From: Bacilli bacterium
GTDB taxonomy: Bacteria > Bacillota_I > Bacilli_A > RFN20 > CAG-826
Reading direction: 5' to 3'
DNA length: 39,486 bases
Assembly (NCBI GenBank): GCA_017454295.1
Contig: JAFTDF010000040.1
Span: 1-39,486 of the forward strand
Positions 1-12,488 of this stretch are shown here, in pieces (position 1 is the first letter of the stretch; every line of letters begins with the position of its first letter). The position numbers and the translations under genes are program-made. Under the pieces are notes generated by a model. That model searched no databases. It was not told where the DNA came from and was given only the letters and a program-made list of their open reading frames with translations.

Positions 1-3000
1 ATAGCAGTGCTTTCCCCCTCAAAATCACCTTCATCACAATGATAAGTGGGTTTAACGGTGACAGTGCCTTCTGCAACACCGGTCAAAGCGGATCCGTCGA
101 GAGAGGCATAGTCTCCACCACTCACGATTTCCCAGGTCCAAGAGGCATGCGTACCTTCTTTGCTGACGGTTGCAGTCAAAGCGAGCGTTTTGCCAACTGA
201 TACACTATCGGCCGAAGTGACTTCAATGGTCGGATTGTATGGGGCTTCTTGAACCGCGATGATTTCGCAGCCAGCATCAAATTCATAAACGACCGGAGAA
301 GACCCAAATTTCTTGATTTTTCCTTTGACGATAATCGTGTCTCCCTCAGAAACCGAAGTCACCCCGGCTCCAAAAGATGCTTTATAACACTCAAAGTCGT
401 TGGAGAAGAAATAATTATTCCTTTCATCGCTCTTATTGGTGGTGATTTTGGTCACGACGCCCGTAGCGTAATAATCTTTGGTCGATGCCGTCGTGCTATC
501 GTAAGCCACTGCTCTTGCCATAATCTCGGCTTCGGTCAGCGGATGAAGTTCCGTACCATACGTATTCTGCACGGTCACATTCACGACTTTGACGACATGT
601 CCACCACCTTGTTTTTCACCAACGCTGGTGACGGTAATCGTAGCCGAACCTAAAGCTTTGGCAACGAGTTTGCCATCGCCATTGATCTCGACGACATTCG
701 TATCACTAGACACGTAGGTAACGCCTTGTTCGGCATTCGCGTTGGTAATCGTGGCATTGATCGGGTTCGCGGGGTCGCTATCGATTTCCAACGCGATATC
801 CGTGAACGTACCATTCATGTCGTCATCGACGAGTTTGGCATATTCAACGGTAATCTCGATGGTATCAAGAATATCTGCTTTTTCGGCACTCTTGACGGTG
901 ATGGTTGCGGTTCCGATGCCAATGGCTTGGATCGTTCCATTAGTGACGGTGGCCACACTTGCGTTGGAGGTCGACCAAACGACGTTCTTGTTGGTGGCGT
1001 CTTCCGGTCCAACTTCAGCAGTCAACGCCAAGTTGGATCCTTTGGCAATCGTGGCACTTGCACCAGCATCTGCCTGACCGTTCTTTAAGGTAACCGAAGT
1101 CACATCAACATGCACCACTTCTTCGGTGATCACATAGATAGTCTTGTCGGCATCCAAATCAATGGTGTAGATTTCATCGACAGGAGTAAGGATTTCACCC
1201 TCGCTTCCGTCGAGACGAACACTCACAATCCGATAATCGCCAACGGGGCTCACGGTGAAGTGGAGACCGTTGGCTTCGCGGACTTTGTTATAGTTGACAA
1301 TCTCCGGGTCAAAAGTGAGTAGGTAGGAACCAGCCTTATTCCCTTGGATGGTAATCGCGTGATACACGATTGCAGAAGCGTCGACAACAATGCGAAGGTT
1401 CAGTCCTTCGTTTGGAACGGTGAAAGAATAGATGTCTCCTTGGCGAATAAGCTCCAAAGGCTGTTCACCATTGAGAACGCTGACAGTTCCGAGTTTATAA
1501 ATCTCGGAATCATACTCCAAATTGAAAGAGATAACGTCATCTTTGACATAGCCCACTTTTTCATCAGAGATTTCGATGGTAACACCATCAACGGATTCTT
1601 TTGCGATGGTGGTTGGCAAGTAAGCTTCGTAGCCACCGCCCGAAGACGGAGTATAGGTAACAGATATTTCGCTTATTTTTAGCTGTCCGTTACCGCTTCC
1701 ACTAGAAGTCATCAAATATGAAACGGAGCTGTCGTCAATCGCCACCGCCGTTCCAGAAGATACAGGGAAAGCCGTAACATTTTTGAGTTCGAACGTTAGC
1801 GTTATCGAATTAATCACGTTGTTCTCAGCGGCAGAAATGGTAATCCCCCCCTCGGTTTTTCCGGATTTACCATAAACTCGAAGGTCGTCGTAAAGCTTTG
1901 CGTGATTACTACCATCGGCACTGTATAAAGAAACTCCAATGGCTTTATCCAACATAAACGAATCAATATCGTCCGTTCTTGCCCATCCATTAGCTTCCGC
2001 AATTTCAGAATAAGTTTTACTTACAGTTACAGGCTGAGCTTCCACTTGCCGTTTCGCCCGGATTGCAAAGTCATATTGGACCTTTTCGCCATTGGAATAG
2101 GTCACTTCGATCCAACCATCTCCATAAGAGGTGATCGCAACCTTGTTATCCTGACCAACGGCAAGGACATTGTTATCCGCAATGATGGACTGGATGGTTT
2201 TGTCGACATTGGTTTGATTCCAAGTGAAGTCAATCGCACGGGCGGTTAACTGTTCGTCCCAAATAATCGCATCATCGAGGACTTCCGCCTCATGGAGGGA
2301 GACAGCGATAAGATTCGTTTTCAGTTCGGCGTAAGCAACACTCACGGGGATTTCCACCGAGCAGCCGGCCACGGGATTGAGGTCGGAATCGATCACGGTG
2401 ACGGTAATCTTGGCATCACCATGGGCAACCGCTTGATAATGACCGTCGTCATCGACCGTCACAACGTTCGGATTGCTGCTTTCAAAGATGAAGGCATAAT
2501 CTTGCGAATTCACATATTGGGCATTGGTAAAGCTCAAATCCAAATCCCCAGATACGCCATCAGCGAGATTCAAAGATTCAGGAGCACCTTCGATACCACT
2601 AGGAACGGCATAATCGACGGTGACCGTAATGGTTTTGGACTTGCTAGGATCAGCATGGGCTTTCGCGGTGATTTGATACTCGCCGATTGCGGTCCCATTG
2701 AAGGTATAACCACCAACACCACTTGCGACCAATTGATCGTTGACATACCAATCCGCGGTTCTGTCGTTGAGATAGGCGGGAAGTAGATAGGCTTCTAAGG
2801 TAACACTGTCGCCACCGGCAATGGCAACCGCGTCAACATAGGCGGTGTCGCGCTTAATGGCCACCGATTCGACGGCGACTTCATACCAAGAAGTCACGAC
2901 GAAGGAAGCCATATTGGGGGTGGAGTCCGTATTGATGTCATAGACATATCCAACGAAATGGAAATGCTGACCAGAGGTCCACGGATAATCGCCATAGACG

Positions 3001-6000
3001 GTGAGCCGTGGCAGTTCAGGATAACTGGCTAAGGTCACGACTCCGTTCTCATTCGCAGTCACGACATAGGACTCAAAATCATATTTCTTAACGTCGCTAT
3101 TATCGAAGGAAACCAACCAGTCGGTGGCGTAGGTATCATCAAAATAATCCACTACAATCGGGGCTAAGGTATCTTGTTCGACGACCTCACTGCCCTGCAC
3201 GTTGGAGGCATTAATCTTGAGGTTGCCCGCAGATTTGGCGGCTACGACTGTGCCCGAGACCATCACGGAATGGTTGAGTTCGGCTTTCGCCAGCTCTTCG
3301 CCCGAAGCGGCGACATAGATATAGTCGGCTTTATCGTAGAGTAAGAACCCTTGGGTATCCTTGGCCACAACGGTGCCAGCAAGATTGGCAACGGAAGTAT
3401 TGACGACGAGGTCGGCAATCTTAACCGAGACGATATGGATATGGAAGACCTTGGACTTCGCTTGACCAGAGGCGTCTTTGCCTTTGGTGGTAACGGTCAA
3501 GGTGACTTCGCCATTGAGTTCGGTTAAGGCATTCGCGGTGATGCGGCTACCGTCAACGCTTAATAAGTTAGGATTGCTGGAAACGACGTCATAGGATTGC
3601 TTGGCGTCTAGCGGGAGAATCTCGACGGTTAAGTTGTAGGATTGCCCCACTTTTAATTCGACGATGCCCGCTGCTTCGGTGATACCGGTGACGTTCAAAG
3701 AGGCCACGTTGTCATAACGCATATTGCCTTCATAGACCCAGCCTTCATTGCCGAGGGTATAGAAGTCCCAAGTATCTAAGTCGACATAGGAATCGCCAAC
3801 GATACCGGCAACGTGGGTGTCGTTGGGATTACCACGACCATTGCGGAAGGAGGTGCCATCTTGGCCCTTCTCACCGTCTAAGACAATGAATTCGCTCGTG
3901 GTATCGTCGGTATAGGTGAAAACATAACGTTTGCCCGGACCTTCGAAGTTCTCGTCTAGGGCAAACGAGGCGATGCCCTTGCCGGTGGCGCCGGTCTCGC
4001 CTTGGACTTTGACGGTCTTCGAACCGTCGATATACAAGAAGCCGTCTTGGCCGACTTCCACATTCGGGGTGGAACCGTCTTTACCCTTAAGGCAGAGACC
4101 GGCTTCATCCCAGTTAGAACCATTGTAACGGAAGAGATCACCAGTGGAGGTGTTGATATAAAGGTCACCTTCGAGGTATTCGCCCGCTCCAGGACCGGTG
4201 TTGCCGGAGAAGACGGAGAGACCACGCTGACCCGCTTGGCCATCTTGGCCTTTGAGGCTGCCCTTCAAAGTCCAGGTTTGGACATCATCAGAGGAAGTTA
4301 ACTCGTAGAGGTCTCCGGTGGAGATATCAATATAGAGATCATGGAGGATCGCTTCGGGGATATTGGAAGGAACTCCTTCGCCGCAGCGGACGGAATAACC
4401 GGGTTTGCCATCTGCGCCTTGTTGACCTGGGGCTCCGTCATTGCCCTTGGCAACGATCACGGCCTGCTCGGAATTATCGGTCAAATGGAAGATCACACGG
4501 GTATTGCCGGTGAGGCCATCGGTTTCATAGGTGACGGAGGCAATGCCCACTCCATCTTCGCCATCCTGGCCATCTTGGCCGTTTGCACCCGCAGGGCCTT
4601 GGGCTTTGACGCCGGTGGAGACGCCATCGACGCACCAATAACCATCGTCATTGATGGTGAGAACGGGTTTATCACCCTTATCGCCCTTATCGCCTTTGAT
4701 TAAACCGGCGCAGACGAATTTGCCGTCGGCTCTAGCGATATAGAGGTAACCGTCGACGAGATAGCCATCCCCGGTGTCATAGCCTTCGATGGGCTGTTCA
4801 TAGAGTTCATCGCTATAGAGGACATCCACGATGTCATTGACGGTATGGGTATCTTTGTCTTTGGCGTAGGCCTGACCCGCGAAAGAGATGGAGGTGCCAT
4901 CCGCCCCGTTTTTGACGGTGAAGGTCGAGGTGGTTTGGTTGGTATAGGTAATGGTATAGGTATCGACCAGACCGGAAGAAGAGGTATAGGCGATGCCGGC
5001 GATGCCGTTGCCGGTGGCCCCGGTCTGGCCTTGGGCGCCTTTCTCGACGATCACCTGTTTGGTGGTCGGGTTCTCTTGATCATCGTTATAGACGAAGGTG
5101 ATCTGGGTGTTCCCGTTAGGCAAAACCTGATAGGTCACATCGGCAATGCCAACCCCGGTTGCCCCGGTTTGGCCTTGGTCGCCCTTCTCGCCTTTGACCT
5201 TGGTGCCGGTGGAAATGCCATCGACGCAAAGGTAGCCTTCGGGGTTGACGGTGACTTCAGGACTATGCCCGTCTTGGCCATTCGCCCCGTTTTTCACCGT
5301 GAAGGTCGAAGTGCTTTGATCCGTATAGGTAATGGTATAGGTATCGACTAAGCCGCTGGAAGAGGTATAGGCGATGCCGGCGATGCCGTTGCCGGTGGCC
5401 CCGGTCTGGCCTTGGGCGCCTTTCTCGACGATCACCTGCTTGGTGGTCGGATTCTGCGGATCATCGTCATAGACGAAGGTGATCTGGGTATTGCCGTTGG
5501 CCAAAATCTGATAGGTCACATCGGCGATGCCAACGCCTTTGGCCCCTGCCTGTCCCTGTTCGCCTTGGTCGCCCTTCTCGCCTTTGACCTTGGTGCCGGT
5601 GGAGATGCCGTCGACGCAAAGGTAGCCCTCTTGGTTGACGGTGACTTCAGGACTATGGCCATCGTGGCCGTTTTGGACATAGAAGACGGTGGGGTCGCCG
5701 GAAGAATAAGTGATTTGATAGGTATCGCGACCATTCTGGTCGGTCTCCCCCACTTTGGTGACGGAGACGATGGAGACGCCATCCTCGCCCTTATCGCCTT
5801 TATAGACGGTGACGACTTGGTCGGGACGATCGTCATCAAAGGCAATCGTCAAAACAGTATTGCCGTCGTTATCGTAGTTGACGCCGATGGATTCGATGCC
5901 CGCCCCATCTTCGCCATCGCTGCCGGCTTCGCCTTTTAAGGAGGTGCCGACGGGTTGGCCGTTGACGGTGAGGCGATAGTCCTCGCTTAAGCCAACGACC

Positions 6001-6833
6001 GGGGATTGCCCGTCTTGGCCATGGTGGACTTCAAAAGAGGTCTTGGTGGAATCGGTATAGTAGATGGTATAAACGGTCTTGGTTTCGTCGGAGGCCTGGG
6101 TATCTTCCAAGATCATGGAGATGCCACGGCCATCGTCGCCCTTATCGCCTTTATAGACGGTGAAACTTTGGGCTTGCTTGCCGCCGGTATAGTAGAAGGT
6201 CAATACGGTGTTGCCACTGGCGTCTTTGCTGACGTAGACGGAGGCAATGCCCACGCCTTCGGCACCCTGAAGGGATTCCCCCACTTCCTCGCCATTGACG
6301 GTGAGGCGGTAATTCTCGCTTAATCCAATTTCCGGGGTGGAACCATCGGCCCCGTTACGGACTTCAAAGGAAGAGGTGGTCTGATCGCTATAGGTGATGA
6401 TATAGGTGGAGACCGCTTCGGTGGAATGGTTTTGGTCTAAGGTAATCGAGGCGATGCCTTTGCCGGATTTGCCATCTTCGCCATCCTTGCCATCCTCTCC
6501 GGCATCGCCTTTTTGGCCTTCGCCGCCTTTGATGTTTCCGGATTTGGTCCAGACCCCATTGGCCTTGGTATAGAAATCCCAAGTATTCAAATCGATATAG
6601 GAGTCGCCATCCTTCCCTAAGCTGGCACTAGGCGCACCTTTGCCGTTAAGGACGGAGTTACCGGTGTCGCCTTTATCCCCCTTATCGCCCTTATCACCTT
6701 TGGTGACATCCCCGGTGGCCCCGGTGGGACCGGGCGGGACGATGCCCGAGGCATCGGCTGTATTCATCACTTGGCAGCCGGTTAACATCGAAATGACCGC
6801 AAGGGCAGTCAGGGTTTTCAGAAATGGTTTCAT
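1..6833 (-). CDS. Giant collagen-like, Ig-like surface lipoprotein (partial, C-terminus beyond left edge)
   Basis: One open frame runs from ATG at 6833 to the left edge, about 2,277 residues without a stop, so the C-terminus is missing. The N-terminus is a lipoprotein signal (MKPFLKTLTALAVISMLTGC, lipidated Cys20) preceded by a GAAGGGAA ribosome site. Residues about 25-1040 alternate collagen-like Gly-X-Y runs (GDKGDKGDKGD, GQTGATG, GEDGKDG) with short beta modules. These include four or five copies of an aromatic module of the form G-D-x-Y-x-D...F/Y...G-x-W. Residues from about 1040 onward hold bacterial Ig-like (Big_2-type) domains and OB-like segments (for example GVVTKITTNKSDERNNYFFS near 430-500). 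No LPXTG anchor is visible. It is tandem with a paralogue at 7008-11159. The role is inferred to be a long cell-surface adhesin or scaffold; the ligand is unknown. Confidence 0.88.
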   Translation of the reverse strand, partial: MKPFLKTLTALAVISMLTGCQVMNTADASGIVPPGPTGATGDVTKGDKGDKGDKGDTGNSVLNGKGAPSASLGKDGDSYIDLNTWDFYTKANGVWTKSGNIKGGEGQKGDAGEDGKDGEDGKSGKGIASITLDQNHSTEAVSTYIITYSDQTTSSFEVRNGADGSTPEIGLSENYRLTVNGEEVGESLQGAEGVGIASVYVSKDASGNTVLTFYYTGGKQAQSFTVYKGDKGDDGRGISMILEDTQASDETKTVYTIYYTDSTKTSFEVHHGQDGQSPVVGLSEDYRLTVNGQPVGTSLKGEAGSDGEDGAGIESIGVNYDNDGNTVLTIAFDDDRPDQVVTVYKGDKGEDGVSIVSVTKVGETDQNGRDTYQITYSSGDPTVFYVQNGHDGHSPEVTVNQEGYLCVDGISTGTKVKGEKGDQGEQGQAGAKGVGIADVTYQILANGNTQITFVYDDDPQNPTTKQVIVEKGAQGQTGATGNGIAGIAYTSSSGLVDTYTITYTDQSTSTFTVKNGANGQDGHSPEVTVNPEGYLCVDGISTGTKVKGEKGDQGQTGATGVGIADVTYQVLPNGNTQITFVYNDDQENPTTKQVIVEKGAQGQTGATGNGIAGIAYTSSSGLVDTYTITYTNQTTSTFTVKNGADGTSISFAGQAYAKDKDTHTVNDIVDVLYSDELYEQPIEGYDTGDGYLVDGYLYIARADGKFVCAGLIKGDKGDKGDKPVLTINDDGYWCVDGVSTGVKAQGPAGANGQDGQDGEDGVGIASVTYETDGLTGNTRVIFHLTDNSEQAVIVAKGNDGAPGQQGADGKPGYSVRCGEGVPSNIPEAILHDLYIDISTGDLYELTSSDDVQTWTLKGSLKGQDGQAGQRGLSVFSGNTGPGAGEYLEGDLYINTSTGDLFRYNGSNWDEAGLCLKGKDGSTPNVEVGQDGFLYIDGSKTVKVQGETGATGKGIASFALDENFEGPGKRYVFTYTDDTTSEFIVLDGEKGQDGTSFRNGRGNPNDTHVAGIVGDSYVDLDTWDFYTLGNEGWVYEGNMRYDNVASLNVTGITEAAGIVELKVGQSYNLTVEILPLDAKQSYDVVSSNPNLLSVDGSRITANALTELNGEVTLTVTTKGKDASGQAKSKVFHIHIVSVKIADLVVNTSVANLAGTVVAKDTQGFLLYDKADYIYVAASGEELAKAELNHSVMVSGTVVAAKSAGNLKINASNVQGSEVVEQDTLAPIVVDYFDDTYATDWLVSFDNSDVKKYDFESYVVTANENGVVTLASYPELPRLTVYGDYPWTSGQHFHFVGYVYDINTDSTPNMASFVVTSWYEVAVESVAIKRDTAYVDAVAIAGGDSVTLEAYLLPAYLNDRTADWYVNDQLVASGVGGYTFNGTAIGEYQITAKAHADPSKSKTITVTVDYAVPSGIEGAPESLNLADGVSGDLDLSFTNAQYVNSQDYAFIFESSNPNVVTVDDDGHYQAVAHGDAKITVTVIDSDLNPVAGCSVEIPVSVAYAELKTNLIAVSLHEAEVLDDAIIWDEQLTARAIDFTWNQTNVDKTIQSIIADNNVLAVGQDNKVAITSYGDGWIEVTYSNGEKVQYDFAIRAKRQVEAQPVTVSKTYSEIAEANGWARTDDIDSFMLDKAIGVSLYSADGSNHAKLYDDLRVYGKSGKTEGGITISAAENNVINSITLTFELKNVTAFPVSSGTAVAIDDSSVSYLMTSSGSGNGQLKISEISVTYTPSSGGGYEAYLPTTIAKESVDGVTIEISDEKVGYVKDDVISFNLEYDSEIYKLGTVSVLNGEQPLELIRQGDIYSFTVPNEGLNLRIVVDASAIVYHAITIQGNKAGSYLLTFDPEIVNYNKVREANGLHFTVSPVGDYRIVSVRLDGSEGEILTPVDEIYTIDLDADKTIYVITEEVVHVDVTSVTLKNGQADAGASATIAKGSNLALTAEVGPEDATNKNVVWSTSNASVATVTNGTIQAIGIGTATITVKSAEKADILDTIEITVEYAKLVDDDMNGTFTDIALEIDSDPANPINATITNANAEQGVTYVSSDTNVVEINGDGKLVAKALGSATITVTSVGEKQGGGHVVKVVNVTVQNTYGTELHPLTEAEIMARAVAYDSTTASTKDYYATGVVTKITTNKSDERNNYFFSNDFECYKASFGAGVTSVSEGDTIIVKGKIKKFGSSPVVYEFDAGCEIIAVQEAPYNPTIEVTSADSVSVGKTLALTATVSKEGTHASWTWEIVSGGDYASLDGSALTGVAEGTVTVKPTYHCDEGDFEGESTA

Positions 6834-6908
6834 AGTTGGTTCCCTTCTATCGAAAGCCATTTCACCTTAGCCTAGACGAAAAAGCCGTCGATAAGTGTTT
6901 GACACCTC

Positions 6909-6914
6909 ATTATA
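6909..6914 (-). promoter_or_regulatory. -10 box for the giant lipoprotein gene
   Basis: TATAAT on the minus strand in the context GCGTATAAT, the same context as the promoter of the downstream-numbered paralogue (11212-11217). No convincing -35 hexamer is seen 16-18 bases upstream. It lies 76 bases before the ATG and just after the terminator of the preceding gene. Confidence 0.55.
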
Positions 6915-6963
6915 CGCGTAGCAAGCACGCTTGTGGGCGAGAAGTTGCAAGGAATTTACAAAC

Positions 6964-6994
6964 AAAAAAGCGGACTCTGTAAGAAGAGCCCGCT
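6964..6994 (-). terminator. Intrinsic terminator after the 1,383-residue lipoprotein
   Basis: On the minus strand, AGCGGGCTCT pairs with AGAGTCCGCT (10 bp, one G-T) around a 6-base loop, followed directly by a run of T. It sits 14 bases past the stop codon and separates the two tandem lipoprotein genes. Confidence 0.85.
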
Positions 6995-7007
6995 AATCTG
7001 TTAGAAC

Positions 7008-10000
7008 CTATTCGATAATGATGCTTCCAACAATAACCATGGAATTCGTATTAACGAAGGAAATGGTTTGATCTTTCAACTTGCTTAAATCATAGACCAC
7101 TTCTCTAGTGCAAACTTTTTTGGTCTTGTCTTTATTTGCGTTGTAGTCGGTGTCGACAATGTTGCCGAGGCTTGCTTGGGCAGTCTGATCACCATATTTA
7201 ACCGTCAGATACTTATCCAAGCTAGAGTGGTTATCGGACAAATAGATTATTCTCACTCGATTTGCGCTGGCGATCTCATCGGTGATGGCGATGGAAACGT
7301 TGCCAGAAGAACCCTTGAACTGGAGGCATTGTGTTCCACCGTTAGCCGCAGTGTAGTATTGGTTATTTTGGTTCATGATGATACCGTAGCTTCCCGGATC
7401 GAGAGTGGCTGCGATATCCCCAAGAGCGATTGCTTTATTCTTGTTATCGGCATAAGCCTTTCCGACGAGGTTACCAACCGTGAAGGTGATTCCACCTTGG
7501 GGGATCGTCTTCCCGCCAGATTCTGCCGGGATCACCGTGAAGGTCTCTTCTTTAGTAACCGTCAAATTATCGTAGGTATAAGAGACCTCAACGTTAACGA
7601 TACCGGCGACTTTACCGGTTAACACGCCGTTTTGATCGATCGTGGCGTTGTCCTTGTAATCATCATCTTTGATGCCCCAAGTGACCACGGCACCTTGCTT
7701 TTCGTTCGTAACGCCTAAACTGAGTTGAATGGTGTCATTCACGGTCACCTCATGGGTATCGGCGAGGATGTCTAGAACCGGAAGTGCTTCGGTTACCACG
7801 GTGATAACCGCGGCTTCTTGGACTTTTTCGAAGGTGCAACCATAACTATCGGTGGTCTGGTCCAAGACGAATTGATCAAAGATCGAGGCTTGACCCATGG
7901 TGATATCGACGATGCGATAGCCAGCGTCGGCTTTGACCGCAATCCAGAAATTACTGCCTTTATCAATCGTGGCATAGCCATCGACGACTTGAGGTCCGGA
8001 ATTAACCACCGTGAACTTATCGCCGGCCATTTGGAAGGTAACCGAGGTTGCAGCGGATTCTTCCTTCATCGTCACCACGACGTTCACGTCGCCTTGGGCA
8101 TTGTTAACCACATAGTGGTTCGACGGGCTGACTTGTTGTTGGACACCATTGATGGTGATGGAATCGACGACATAACCCGATTCGGGGACGACATCGAAGG
8201 AAACATCATCGCCAACATAGCTACCGGAGACGTTGGCAAGGGTGTAATGGCTGCCCTCTTTCGGTCCGACTTGGATGCCTTGTTTGGCTTCCGTGGTCAC
8301 GGTGATGGTCACCGCTTCTTCACCCATGACATAGGTGTAGAGGCCTTGGCCATCGGGAGTTAACGGCGTTTCGCCAACTTTGACGCTGACGAGAGAATAG
8401 CCTTCGTCGGCATCGACGTGGAATTGGAGCTGCTCACCGGCATAGTGATCACCGGCAATGCTCGGAGTAACCGTGGCGTGTTCGGCACTGACGGTAACGG
8501 CGTGGGCCACTTCTTCTTGACCCGAGATGGCAATGGAGGTATCGCCTTCGATGGTGATGGAATAGACGCCTTCCACCGCTTCTAAAGGCTGGTTATTGAC
8601 GGTAACCACCGGGTTGAGGTGTTCTTCTTCGGTTGTTAGCTTGAATTCGATGACATCGCCTTCTTTGGCGATCTCAGGAAGCTCATAAGATTGATTGTTC
8701 TTATCCAAGATAGAGAAACGGGAATCGGCTTGGAGCAAGACGGCAGCCGGGATATAGAAATCATTCACTTCACCTAAGGTGACGATGATGGAGGATTCAG
8801 AGAAACGAATGTCATTCTTGCCATTATGTTGGAACTCGAGGTGCTGTCCTTTGCCTACCCAGTTCATGGAATCTGTCATTTCTCCAACATCGGAAGATAA
8901 CGTACCGTATTTGTCGTTATATACGAATTCGACGGCAGTAATGTCGCGCTTGGCATCAATGGTTAAGGTATCGCCCGACCACAAAGACATACTGGAATTC
9001 TCATAGAAATAGGAATTCAAACCCTCAATGTTGACGGTAACGCCATCTTTGGTAACGGGTTTGATGAAATAGTGTTTGGCAACGCTAGGATCAGCTTCTC
9101 CTTGGAATTCAGCCCCGGAGAAAGTGGCCACCACTTCATCGATGTGCTTGTAGGCGTAGACGCTGACATCAAGCATATCGCTCTTGAGTTTGGTGTTACC
9201 CTTCGAAGTGAATTGGAGATAGCACTTACCATAGACCGGATCTTGGGCCGAGCCTTTGGCTTCGATGGAGATGACGCCTTGGTTATCGACTAAGGTGACC
9301 GGCGCATCATCGATGGATAAGGGATGTTGCCCCTGTTCATCGGAATAGAAGGCATAGGCATATTCCTTGCTGGCGCCTTGGTTGACGCTGACGGTGATGC
9401 CCGAGCTTAAGACGGCATCTTGCTCACCGACATAGAGATGCGCTTTTTCCATGGTCGCGGAGAATTCGGTGACGGGGACCGCGACGATCTCCACCACTTT
9501 CTTCACGGAATAGATGGTGGCGAAGGTGAAGGTGATTTCGATTTCCCCTTCCGCTAACGCGGTGACGTTACCATTTTCATCGATGGTGGCTTTGCCCTCG
9601 TCTTCATCGCGCAAGGACCAAACAAAGAGATACGGGAGCGCTTCTTCCGGCGCTTCCTCAATGAGGGCTTGTAGACGCGACGGGAGCACCGCGGTATAGG
9701 AGTCTACGGCGCCGATGGCTAAGGAATCCTCCCCTTGGATGCCAAGCAGCGAATCCGCGGATTCGGCGATCATCGAAACGACTTTGCTCGATTCGTCGAA
9801 GGCATAAACATAACCGGTGACGATATAATCCCCCGGTTCCTGGGGCAAACCTTCCCAGACGAATTCGTAGTCTGCCACGCCGGGATCAGCTTCATATCCA
9901 CGATATTCCATGGTCCCACCATCGTCTTCGACGGTGATGGCCATAAAGGCGTAAGTGACTTCGTTAAGGAAGGAAGTATTAAAAATCGGATTAGGTCTCG

Positions 10001-11159
10001 TGACCAAAGGAAGGGGTTCCAATTCGAGATCCATAAATCTGATGGCTTCGATCGCGGAAGCCTCGACGTGGCCGGGATGGCCCTCTTCGTGGCCTGCGAA
10101 TGTATAAACGCCTTCGACGCGGGTATATTGCCCCACTACGGCTTCGTTATTCTCCATGGCGACATAAACGGTGCTACCGCCGAGGGCAGAATTGCCGCTA
10201 TGGTCAGCCAATACGAAGCCTTTGCTGTCTTTGGCTTTGACGACGCCATAAAGGTCATCAATTTGGGTCTCTTCCGCCAGATTGAACAAATCGTCGATGG
10301 TCGTGGCCGCGGTTAATACAGCGAAGGCCATCGAAATCGGCTTCATGGTGGCGGATTCTTTGGCCACCGTGGTCACTTGGACCGAAATCTCTTCGCCGAT
10401 TTCATCGGGTAAGGTCAGAAGGTGGGTTTCTTCGTCATAGGCGGCTCCTTCGACTTCGACGATCACGTCGTCGCGGGCACCGGCATTGACTTCCCAGCTT
10501 AATTTAAGGGCGCTGCCGGCTTTGCGAGAAAGCTGGGCGCCGTCTTCGATCGTTTCGCCTTCGAGGAGGACTTTGAGACTGGTAAGGGAACGATAACGGA
10601 GGCTGGTCTCATAGGTCCATTCCTCGTCGTATTTGACATAAAGGTCGAGGGTATCTAAGTCTAAATAGGTATCGCCGGATTTGCCGAGTTCGGGAGAAGG
10701 CGCGCCTTTGCCGTTGAGGAAGCTTTGTCCGGGAGCGCCATCTTGGCCATCTTGACCGTCGATGCCATCTTCGCCATCTTCGCCATTCTGGCCGTCTTTC
10801 CCATCTTTGCCGTCTTTGCCGTCTTGGCCGTCTTGGCCATCGGTCCCGTTTTCGCCGGGGTCGCCTTTGGGGCCTTTGATGTTGCCGGTTTTCACCCAAG
10901 CGCCATCGCGGAAAACATAGACATCGCCATTATTCAAATCCAGATAATGGTCGCCGGATTGATAGGTGGTGCCGGTGGGGACGCCATTGCCCGAATAGAA
11001 GGAGGTGCCGTCCTTACCAGGGTCACCCTTGGGACCTTGGGTGGATTCGCCCGGATTGCTGTCTTGTTTGGATCCGCCGCCGGTATAGGATGAAACATCG
11101 CATCCAGCAAGCATGGCCAAAACCGCGATTGCGGTCATCGTCTTCACAAATGGTTTCAT
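7008..11159 (-). CDS. Large collagen-like/Ig-like surface lipoprotein, paralogue of the left-edge gene
   Basis: The protein has 1,383 residues from ATG at 11159, chosen because it gives a clean lipoprotein signal (MKPFVKTMTAIAVLAMLAGC, Cys20) with AGAGGGAAC as ribosome site; the frame extends 126 bases further upstream but without such signals. Residues about 30-190 hold two aromatic modules (GDHYLDLNNGDVY...W and GDTYLDLDTLDLY...W) around a GKDGKDGKDG collagen-like run. Then come an OB-like segment (about 300-390), Ig-like Big_2-type domains, three beta repeats ending in ITVTTEA-like strands that resemble divergent InlB B-repeats (about 900-1130), another Big_2-type domain, and a C-terminal beta domain of about 165 residues resembling a segment of the neighbouring giant protein. 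Probable surface adhesin; ligand unknown. It has its own promoter and terminator. Confidence 0.9.
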   Translation of the reverse strand: MKPFVKTMTAIAVLAMLAGCDVSSYTGGGSKQDSNPGESTQGPKGDPGKDGTSFYSGNGVPTGTTYQSGDHYLDLNNGDVYVFRDGAWVKTGNIKGPKGDPGENGTDGQDGQDGKDGKDGKDGQNGEDGEDGIDGQDGQDGAPGQSFLNGKGAPSPELGKSGDTYLDLDTLDLYVKYDEEWTYETSLRYRSLTSLKVLLEGETIEDGAQLSRKAGSALKLSWEVNAGARDDVIVEVEGAAYDEETHLLTLPDEIGEEISVQVTTVAKESATMKPISMAFAVLTAATTIDDLFNLAEETQIDDLYGVVKAKDSKGFVLADHSGNSALGGSTVYVAMENNEAVVGQYTRVEGVYTFAGHEEGHPGHVEASAIEAIRFMDLELEPLPLVTRPNPIFNTSFLNEVTYAFMAITVEDDGGTMEYRGYEADPGVADYEFVWEGLPQEPGDYIVTGYVYAFDESSKVVSMIAESADSLLGIQGEDSLAIGAVDSYTAVLPSRLQALIEEAPEEALPYLFVWSLRDEDEGKATIDENGNVTALAEGEIEITFTFATIYSVKKVVEIVAVPVTEFSATMEKAHLYVGEQDAVLSSGITVSVNQGASKEYAYAFYSDEQGQHPLSIDDAPVTLVDNQGVISIEAKGSAQDPVYGKCYLQFTSKGNTKLKSDMLDVSVYAYKHIDEVVATFSGAEFQGEADPSVAKHYFIKPVTKDGVTVNIEGLNSYFYENSSMSLWSGDTLTIDAKRDITAVEFVYNDKYGTLSSDVGEMTDSMNWVGKGQHLEFQHNGKNDIRFSESSIIVTLGEVNDFYIPAAVLLQADSRFSILDKNNQSYELPEIAKEGDVIEFKLTTEEEHLNPVVTVNNQPLEAVEGVYSITIEGDTSIAISGQEEVAHAVTVSAEHATVTPSIAGDHYAGEQLQFHVDADEGYSLVSVKVGETPLTPDGQGLYTYVMGEEAVTITVTTEAKQGIQVGPKEGSHYTLANVSGSYVGDDVSFDVVPESGYVVDSITINGVQQQVSPSNHYVVNNAQGDVNVVVTMKEESAATSVTFQMAGDKFTVVNSGPQVVDGYATIDKGSNFWIAVKADAGYRIVDITMGQASIFDQFVLDQTTDSYGCTFEKVQEAAVITVVTEALPVLDILADTHEVTVNDTIQLSLGVTNEKQGAVVTWGIKDDDYKDNATIDQNGVLTGKVAGIVNVEVSYTYDNLTVTKEETFTVIPAESGGKTIPQGGITFTVGNLVGKAYADNKNKAIALGDIAATLDPGSYGIIMNQNNQYYTAANGGTQCLQFKGSSGNVSIAITDEIASANRVRIIYLSDNHSSLDKYLTVKYGDQTAQASLGNIVDTDYNANKDKTKKVCTREVVYDLSKLKDQTISFVNTNSMVIVGSIIIE

Positions 11160-11211
11160 AGTTGTTCCCTCTTCTTTCCCGCTTTGAAGCGAAAAAGTCC
11201 TTAACATTCCT

Positions 11212-11239
11212 ATTATACGCATAGGGCGAGTGCAGGCAA
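11212..11239 (-). promoter_or_regulatory. Promoter of the 1,383-residue lipoprotein gene
   Basis: Minus-strand -35 TTGCCT (11234-11239), 16-base spacer, -10 TATAAT (11212-11217). It is 53 bases upstream of the ATG. Confidence 0.65.
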
Positions 11240-11426
11240 ACGCGCGTTTTGAGAATTTGAACTGAAACGGTGGCATAGAAAGCATAAGATTAGATGGTCC
11301 AAGATACTATCCGTGTGCTTATCCACAATTTCTTTTTATTACTTACATATTCTCTTATATATGATTTCGTTGAAACGTTTTTGCCCCGTTTCCTACTTTC
11401 CGTTTCCATTAAGGAAAGGGGGAACG

Positions 11427-11432
11427 TATAAT
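11427..11432 (+). promoter_or_regulatory. -10 box for the 336-residue lipoprotein gene
   Basis: TATAAT in the context ACGTATAAT, similar to the -10 contexts of the two larger paralogues. The possible -35 (TTCCAT, 17 bases upstream) is poor. The start codon is 45 bases downstream. Confidence 0.5.
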
Positions 11433-11448
11433 GAAGGATGCGAAAGGG

Positions 11449-11467
11449 GCACCTTGGTTCAAGGTGC
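11449..11467 (+). promoter_or_regulatory. Leader hairpin covering the ribosome-binding site
   Basis: GCACCTTG pairs perfectly with CAAGGTGC around a 3-base loop. The only Shine-Dalgarno-like sequence before the ATG at 11478 (AAGGTG, 11461-11466) lies in the 3' arm, so folding would hide it. A regulatory role is inferred. Confidence 0.5.
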
Positions 11468-11477
11468 GAGAAAAACC

Positions 11478-12488
11478 ATGAAAACTTCGTTACGTTTATT
11501 GACCTCGATCGCCGCGATGACGCTGCTTGCTTCTTGCGGTGGCTATAGCGGAGGGACTGGTGGCGGCGCCATGACCGGTGCCGTTTTAACCGGTGTCGGC
11601 CTCCCTAAGGATAACATTGGCCAAGTCGGCGGTATCTACCTCGATATCCAATCCGGTTTGCTCTATATCAAAGGGCAAGATGGCAAATGGGCACCCAACT
11701 CCAAAATCGGCGGTCCCGCCTTCTATAGTGGCGATAAAGCACCAGATAAAACCTTAGGCGCCAACGATGACGTCTACCTCGATTTCTCCAGTGGCAAGTT
11801 CTATGTCAAGGCCAATGGCGAATGGGTCGAGAAGAATGTCTTTGTTCCTAGCGGCGACCAAGACCCCCAAACCAGCCAGGATTCCTCTCAGGGCGGCGAA
11901 GGAAACTCTTCCCAAGATTCGTCCCAAGGCGGCGGACAATCCCAAGGCGGCGGCGGACAATCCAGTTCCACCACTTCCGTTACCCCCGGCACCAATGCCT
12001 TAGTCAAATCCGCGAATAATCTCGACGGGCATTCTTTCTATCTTGTCGCCGATGCCTTTGCGATGTCGACCACCCCAAAGACGAAAGTGGATGATCCCAA
12101 CACCGTTTATCCTTGGTATCTTGTTGGTAACGGAATCCAGTTCGTCGGCGAATCAATTGACAGTGTTACTGGGCTAACTTCATTCCTTTTCACCAAGAAT
12201 GCTACCGAAAATACTTACAAAATCAGCGCCGGTCAAACCAAATTAGTCGGCTATGTGGATTCCACCACGGAAAACGCCCACTACTCCATTTCCATGGGCG
12301 ATCCGACTTCTTCGGCGGCAAAGAGCGAAGATTGGACTGTAACCATCTCTCCCGAAGGCGTTGCCGAAATCTACGTGGATTTGGGCAATAACCAGAAAGT
12401 GTATTTAGAGTACTATAAATCCAGCTTCTGTGGTCATAAAGCGGCCCCGACCGATGCTGCTGCTCAAATGCATTTGTATAACGCCTAA
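11478..12488 (+). CDS. Surface lipoprotein with two aromatic modules and a Gly/Ser/Gln linker
   Basis: The protein has 336 residues. The ATG at 11478 gives a lipoprotein signal (MKTSLRLLTSIAAMTLLASC, Cys20); the open frame upstream to 11313 lacks such a signal. Two copies of the aromatic module follow (GGIYLDIQSGLLY...W and NDDVYLDFSSGKFY...W, about residues 45-130), each near an FYSG or similar turn, as in the two large lipoproteins but without the Gly-X-Y collagen runs. A low-complexity linker (about 135-180: SSQGG repeats) leads to a C-terminal domain of about 150 residues that I do not recognise (contains WYLVGNG, WTVTISPEG, VYLEYY). It is transcribed divergently from the 1,383-residue paralogue. 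Probable membrane-tethered surface protein of the same module family; function unknown. Confidence 0.88.
   Translation: MKTSLRLLTSIAAMTLLASCGGYSGGTGGGAMTGAVLTGVGLPKDNIGQVGGIYLDIQSGLLYIKGQDGKWAPNSKIGGPAFYSGDKAPDKTLGANDDVYLDFSSGKFYVKANGEWVEKNVFVPSGDQDPQTSQDSSQGGEGNSSQDSSQGGGQSQGGGGQSSSTTSVTPGTNALVKSANNLDGHSFYLVADAFAMSTTPKTKVDDPNTVYPWYLVGNGIQFVGESIDSVTGLTSFLFTKNATENTYKISAGQTKLVGYVDSTTENAHYSISMGDPTSSAAKSEDWTVTISPEGVAEIYVDLGNNQKVYLEYYKSSFCGHKAAPTDAAAQMHLYNA

Follow-up and report, generated by a model that had tools for sequence, protein, structure and literature searches.

Three lipoprotein genes in the left third of the contig

The window, by which we mean the whole stretch of DNA analysed (39,486 nucleotides), is the entire contig C28 of a draft genome of 1.63 Mb in 47 contigs. 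Its left third carries three genes for predicted lipoproteins that have a small module in common. Genes 1 and 2 lie on the minus strand, and gene 3, divergent to gene 2, lies on the plus strand.

3..6833, minus strand: gene 1, lipoprotein, signal MKPFLKTLTALAVISMLTGC, truncated at the contig edge, >2,277 aa; the signal leads into a stalk in which collagen runs, small beta repeats and four modules are combined, and Big_2 Ig-like domains come after it
4392..6698, minus strand: mixed stalk region of gene 1, in which about nine 'type B' beta repeats have short collagen runs between them
6909..6916, minus strand: -10-like box CGTATAAT of gene 1
6969..6994, minus strand: terminator-like hairpin, 3' of gene 2 and ahead of the gene 1 promoter
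7008..11159, minus strand: gene 2, lipoprotein MKPFVKTMTAIAVLAMLAGC; two modules flank a collagen run of 51 residues, and Big_2 and other domains come after them
11212..11219, minus strand: -10-like box CGTATAAT of gene 2
11425..11432, plus strand: -10-like box CGTATAAT of gene 3
11478..12488, plus strand: gene 3, lipoprotein MKTSLRLLTSIAAMTLLASC; two abutting modules, a Gly/Ser linker and a beta-trefoil head

The frame of gene 1 (3-6860, minus strand), when re-read, runs through 2,286 open codons up to the contig edge with no stop and no N, and from the likely start, MKPFLKT at 6833, it encodes 2,277 residues as far as the edge, in agreement with the length above 2,270 residues given in an earlier, sequence-only reading of this DNA. 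The left edge of the window is the end of the contig, and beyond it the one overlap found is of 21 bases, with contig C42, which reads on in frame to its own end; this did not settle the C-terminus of the protein. The frame of gene 2 (7008-11285, minus strand) is complete, with a likely start, MKPFVKT, at 11159, and that of gene 3 (11313-12488, plus strand) has its likely start at 11478. All three products qualify as predicted bacterial lipoproteins, by the lipobox at the end of the signal (TGC, AGC and ASC) and by the presence in the genome of lspA, encoding the lipoprotein signal peptidase (PF01252 match, E 7e-30).

Similar -10 contexts had been noted for the three genes, and indeed the window contains just three copies of CGTATAAT, against 0.77 expected, one for each gene at 46-76 bases upstream of the likely start. 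Because the box is found three times, at genes 1-3, shared control of these genes is plausible. As a signature of module genes in general the box was ruled out, since TATAAT is absent from the 110 bases upstream of all five module genes on other contigs. A co-expressed set, as had been suggested, was not borne out: each gene has a box of its own and the terminator-like hairpin separates gene 2 from gene 1 and its promoter, so that co-expression is something we could at most infer.

The lipoprotein signals of the two large proteins do resemble each other as described, 15 of the 22 residues being identical. In the leader DNA, which here includes the -10 box, the signal-peptide codons and all between them, genes 1 and 2 align with a score of 92 (shuffles <=38.5) and genes 2 and 3 with a score of 68 (shuffles <=46.5), the latter partly as coding similarity, and the alignment of genes 1 and 3 is not above shuffles. 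Searched against the genome, the gene 2 leader has that of gene 1 as its one clear match (E 1.3e-6; next E 0.002). Since the two leaders align far above shuffles and are unmatched elsewhere in the genome, it is likely that the 5' ends of genes 1 and 2 were copied locally.

The local duplication put forward in the sequence-only reading thus probably holds for genes 1 and 2 at their 5' ends but is not supported for the module family: among the collected copies, the nearest relative of all eight window modules lies in another genome, and in the same genome the module is found on at least five further contigs (C1, C6, C7, C14 and C20). Beyond the stalk, the sole match between the two large proteins is weak (33% over 69 aa, E 0.007). 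With module neighbours in other genomes and bodies that barely align, we rejected whole-gene local duplication as the chief origin. A single ancestral adhesin gene, duplicated locally into three that diverged in place, would account for the promoter, leader and signal DNA in common and for the same divergent layout beside amylase and pyrophosphatase genes in a genus-mate, but each module copy is nearer to copies of other genomes, the bodies barely align and the head of gene 3 is a trefoil otherwise associated with nucleases, and we regard such an origin as very unlikely. Copying of 5' ends together with domain shuffling fits the sequences better.

The module and its collagen register

The G-D-x-Y-x-D motif from which a common family had been proposed is the second half of a module of 49 residues, with the consensus GxSxLTGxGxPxxxLGxxGDSYIDxxTWDxYVKxxGxWxxxGNIKGxxG. 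A profile made from nine copies, all on contigs other than the window's and hence independent of it, found eight copies in the three proteins (four in gene 1, two each in genes 2 and 3; E 3e-20 to 1e-4), the best of 600 shuffled proteins reaching 5.6 bits, and the module is indeed common to all three genes.

6516..6662, minus strand: module 1 of gene 1, profile match
4239..4400, minus strand: module 2 of gene 1, profile match; divergent, with a longer loop
4074..4223, minus strand: module 3 of gene 1, profile match; divergent
3711..3857, minus strand: module 4 of gene 1, profile match; last unit ahead of the Ig-like region
10863..11009, minus strand: module 1 of gene 2, profile match
10722..10874, minus strand: collagen run of gene 2, 17 triplets between both modules and in phase with each
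10584..10730, minus strand: module 2 of gene 2, profile match
11574..11717, plus strand: module 1 of gene 3, profile match and AlphaFold2 model
11712..11858, plus strand: module 2 of gene 3, profile match and model; the copy whose model resembles collagen XV/XVIII trimerization domains

Four positions (G7, P11, Y22 and W38) are invariant in the 17 copies compared. No Pfam or NCBIfam model scored above chance against 100 module copies. Matches resembling PQQ propellers (Cake designs) were discarded, as their scores were sums over repeats in which each blade gave about 5 bits, and they vanished with a deeper profile.

The distribution of Gly-X-Y runs is as first read, gene 1 having ten, gene 2 two and gene 3 none, and by these runs the products of genes 1 and 2, not that of gene 3, can be classed from sequence as bacterial collagen-like proteins. 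They did not reach the cut-offs of the Scl1/Scl2 models (NF038329, NF038330; 25-41 bits vs 325 and ~19 vs 400), the matches being to the collagen part only, and they carry a lipobox instead of the LPXTG anchor of that group. Within the gene 1 stalk, a stretch of about 127 aa made of collagen and type B and type C repeats is tandemly duplicated (window 4905-5630, minus strand).

Among 155 distinct copies of the module, 98 directly adjoin a Gly-X-Y run that is in phase with them, 46 of these at both ends, and 57 have no collagen run touching them. Where collagen lies upstream (counted if at least three triplets fall within 60 residues of the module), the run passes without a gap into the module, whose first triplet is exactly its last, in 94 of 107 copies; the next run begins at module position 46 or 47 in 68 copies. 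By these in-phase junctions the module is embedded in the collagen register and not tacked on to it.

Fold of the module and its proposed role

Prediction of the module's structure, named as a check in the sequence-only reading, gave a four-strand fold. In the AlphaFold2 model of the gene 3 module pair (83 sequences; pLDDT 88), each module has four short strands; their mutual arrangement is uncertain (pTM 0.52). The top seven rows of a DALI-like comparison are all collagen XV/XVIII trimerization domains, aligned over 46-49 residues at 2.3-2.8 Å with Z 6.3 to 5.1, bearing in mind that a Z of about 6 for a 46-residue fold can reflect a common arrangement; the following row is a phage protein (Z 4.5), after which come trimeric phage fibres and tailspikes amid unrelated rows. 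Foldseek of the module model against 3n3f gave a probability of 0.96. The modelled module can therefore be said to share the fold of the collagen XV/XVIII trimerization domain, with moderate Z and as a likeness of fold only. Sequence homology to collagen XV/XVIII was not supported by any of three tests: the PF20010 (Collagen_trimer) profile had no match in the whole genome at E up to 10, hhalign of the module with the multiplexin domain gave a probability of 1.5%, and a gapless profile test against collagen XV gave p = 0.37. Since sequence homology was not found, we speak of the same fold, which would work alike, and not of PF20010 membership.

A comparison with predicted viral structures brought up, at the top, mostly collagen-like proteins of giant viruses (Orpheovirus, Megavirus and their relatives) together with phage tail proteins. 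The one solved structure reached by the sequence profile of the module is VP88 of SGIV (8hif chain y4, residues 329-384), matched at E 7e-4 and with a Foldseek probability of 1.00.

In human collagen XV, the multiplexin domain starts the in-register assembly of the helix (PMC7852327; also PMC5126661). This domain of collagen XV/XVIII (3n3f/3hsh, PF20010) is, like the module, about 50 residues long, built of four short strands and adjoined to collagen, and as the best structural match (Z 6.3) it is covered nearly whole, PF20010 likewise having 49 positions. The multiplexin unit has been placed in the C-terminal NC1 region (PMC7852327), whereas the module recurs within the stalk, close to the lipid anchor; the two have no detectable sequence homology, and a trimer of the module is a proposed one. 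Collagen-like tail fibres of phages (PHROG tail families such as 5073, 819, 6320 and 3904) have the same module beside collagen runs, but are virion proteins without a lipobox. In streptococcal phage Tal proteins, small antiparallel 3-beta domains of about 60 aa alternate with collagen linkers on the axis of a trimer; they have been described as half a fibronectin III domain and as resembling the BppA junction, and are likened to the module here by description (PMC9437275). The E. coli prophage collagens EPclA have a collagen stalk capped by separate trimerization modules (PfC, PCoil) and exchange modules with tail fibres (PMC3368898); they differ from the window proteins in their domains and are not lipoproteins. 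Legionella Lcl (PMC11162425) and streptococcal Scl1/Scl2 are adhesins with a surface collagen-like stalk and a trimeric head, but with a single head domain or a cell-wall anchor, and no such module has been described in them.

We propose that the module, in its association with collagen, probably serves as a trimerization (chain-registration) domain that can be plugged into surface stalks anchored by lipid. Three membrane-anchored chains would meet at the modules, which would align them such that the short Gly-X-Y runs could wind into triple helices, and the resulting rod would hold three copies of the head off the membrane, these being Ig-like regions in genes 1 and 2 and three predicted beta-trefoils on a short two-module stalk in gene 3. 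The module, its spread, its collagen phase, its likeness of fold and the swapping of heads are shown, and it is inferred that the chains trimerise, form a triple helix and present three heads at the surface, and that the trefoils bind sugar. Modules and in-phase Gly-X-Y runs alternate without linkers and the heads behind the stalk are swapped freely, both of which support trimerization. Counting against it are the 57 copies without collagen contact, a lipoprotein of about 370 aa with one module and no collagen, the lack of sequence homology to the animal domain, and VP88, an iridovirus inner-membrane anchor protein whose own paper does not describe it as collagenous or trimeric.

Alternatively, the module could be a ligand-binding adhesive unit, such as a small carbohydrate-binding module using Trp and Tyr, with collagen merely spacing the copies. 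The invariance of the aromatic Y22 and W38, the several copies along some chains, the relatives from rumen and gut and the lectin-like fold of the gene 3 head are all in keeping with adhesion. However, Y22 and W38 could equally be core residues, the module begins and ends exactly in collagen phase, as a register domain should, the folds nearest to it belong to trimerization domains and to phage fibres that are trimeric, and binding or catalysis is already supplied by the freely varying heads; we consider an adhesive unit unlikely. Trimerisation of the collagen stalk is the more likely role of the module, and the adhesin set proposed earlier is retained in part: the small protein, with its predicted lectin-like trefoil, could plausibly act much as an adhesin does, but the module itself is likelier to be a trimeriser.

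The module might also be a passive, monomeric beta-hairpin spacer from phage tail fibres that interrupts or softens the collagen rod. It does occur in phage structural proteins, many copies lie in collagen-free arrays, and neighbouring modules have no well-predicted arrangement (the pTM of 0.52). A spacer would need neither the strict register nor the invariant core positions, though, and the fold resembles trimerization units, making a mere spacer improbable as well.

Heads and wider occurrence of the module

The last 166 residues of gene 3 (11988..12485, plus strand) are predicted to form a beta-trefoil (pLDDT 95, pTM 0.90), and beta-trefoil lectins are the nearest Foldseek matches (probability 1.00, E 1.5e-3); the head thus has a beta-trefoil fold by prediction and is probably sugar-binding. 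Most relatives of this head in the order sit on secreted EndA-type nucleases, mostly at the C-terminal end, and gene 3 is the sole trefoil match examined that has modules but no EndA motif. Since the nuclease on contig C6 of the same genome has one module and no trefoil, gene 3 may possibly be its detached accessory half; the many EndA genes in the genus weigh against this idea. Endonuclease I (EndA) proteins occur in 31 of 31 genus genomes, with up to about six matches per genome, and several of them are lipoproteins with Ser-rich linkers and beta-trefoil heads.

A syntenic locus in a genus-mate (pyrophosphatase 75% and amylase 48% identical) has the same divergent pair of module lipoproteins, the small gene keeping its two modules but with another head behind them, one that seems to be frame-shifted. 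Heads are thus exchanged on a stalk that persists. By Pfam families, the proteins found behind the module comprise Endonuclease_1, metallophosphatase/5'-nucleotidase, BspA LRR, SBP_bac_8 and DUF6273; an M6-like protease and parallel-repeat adhesins were judged by eye only.

At E 1e-4 the module is found in 16 of 31 genomes of the genus, among which the window's genome is the richest, with 17 copies. In a phylum sample, 37 of 392 genomes have it, mostly from the same family and order. A pattern-based scan found it in viral contigs, and the viral module proteins mostly match collagen-like tail-fibre families, as does the module protein of Alkanindiges; BLAST of the gene 2 stalk against annotated phages gave no match.

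Bacterial and viral collagens depend on some part that puts three chains in register, and to our knowledge one has been recognised in a minority of them. The component parts described here are of known kinds; what is new is an unnamed module of bacteria, phages and giant viruses with a fold like that of an animal collagen domain. Tentatively, it may represent an unnamed trimerization domain of multiplexin fold common to lipoproteins of gut Bacilli, phage tail fibres and giant-virus collagens. It would then be a general adaptor through which collagen stalks carry enzymes, solute-binding proteins and lectins as trimers, and the animal domain would perhaps be an independent invention or an ancient derivative of this microbial and viral unit. 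If so, one unit of 49 residues without a family model would explain chain registration across bacteria, phages and giant viruses and could be used as a compact trimerization tag, and the nucleases, phosphatases and solute-binding proteins of gut bacteria would stand on rods in trimeric form.

Several further module proteins differ in build. In the gammaproteobacterium Alkanindiges illinoisensis, a lipoprotein (L047:6864-9524) has seven modules and long collagen runs. Three ABC-type solute-binding lipoproteins of the same genus as the window (L098:3134-5014, L099:4522-6600 and L100:4525-6633; SBP_bac_8 by Pfam in the first two) consist of an N-terminal collagen run, one module, an InlB-like repeat and then the binding domain. 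The lipoprotein of about 370 aa (L171-L174, L182), conserved in several genera of the order, is built from type B beta repeats, four or five of them, together with a single module and an InlB-like repeat. Giant proteins (L038, L043, L044, L046 and L048; open frames of 2,200 to >3,300 aa) hold up to 13 modules, in arrays where several copies abut directly, and in some of them BspA-like repeats follow.
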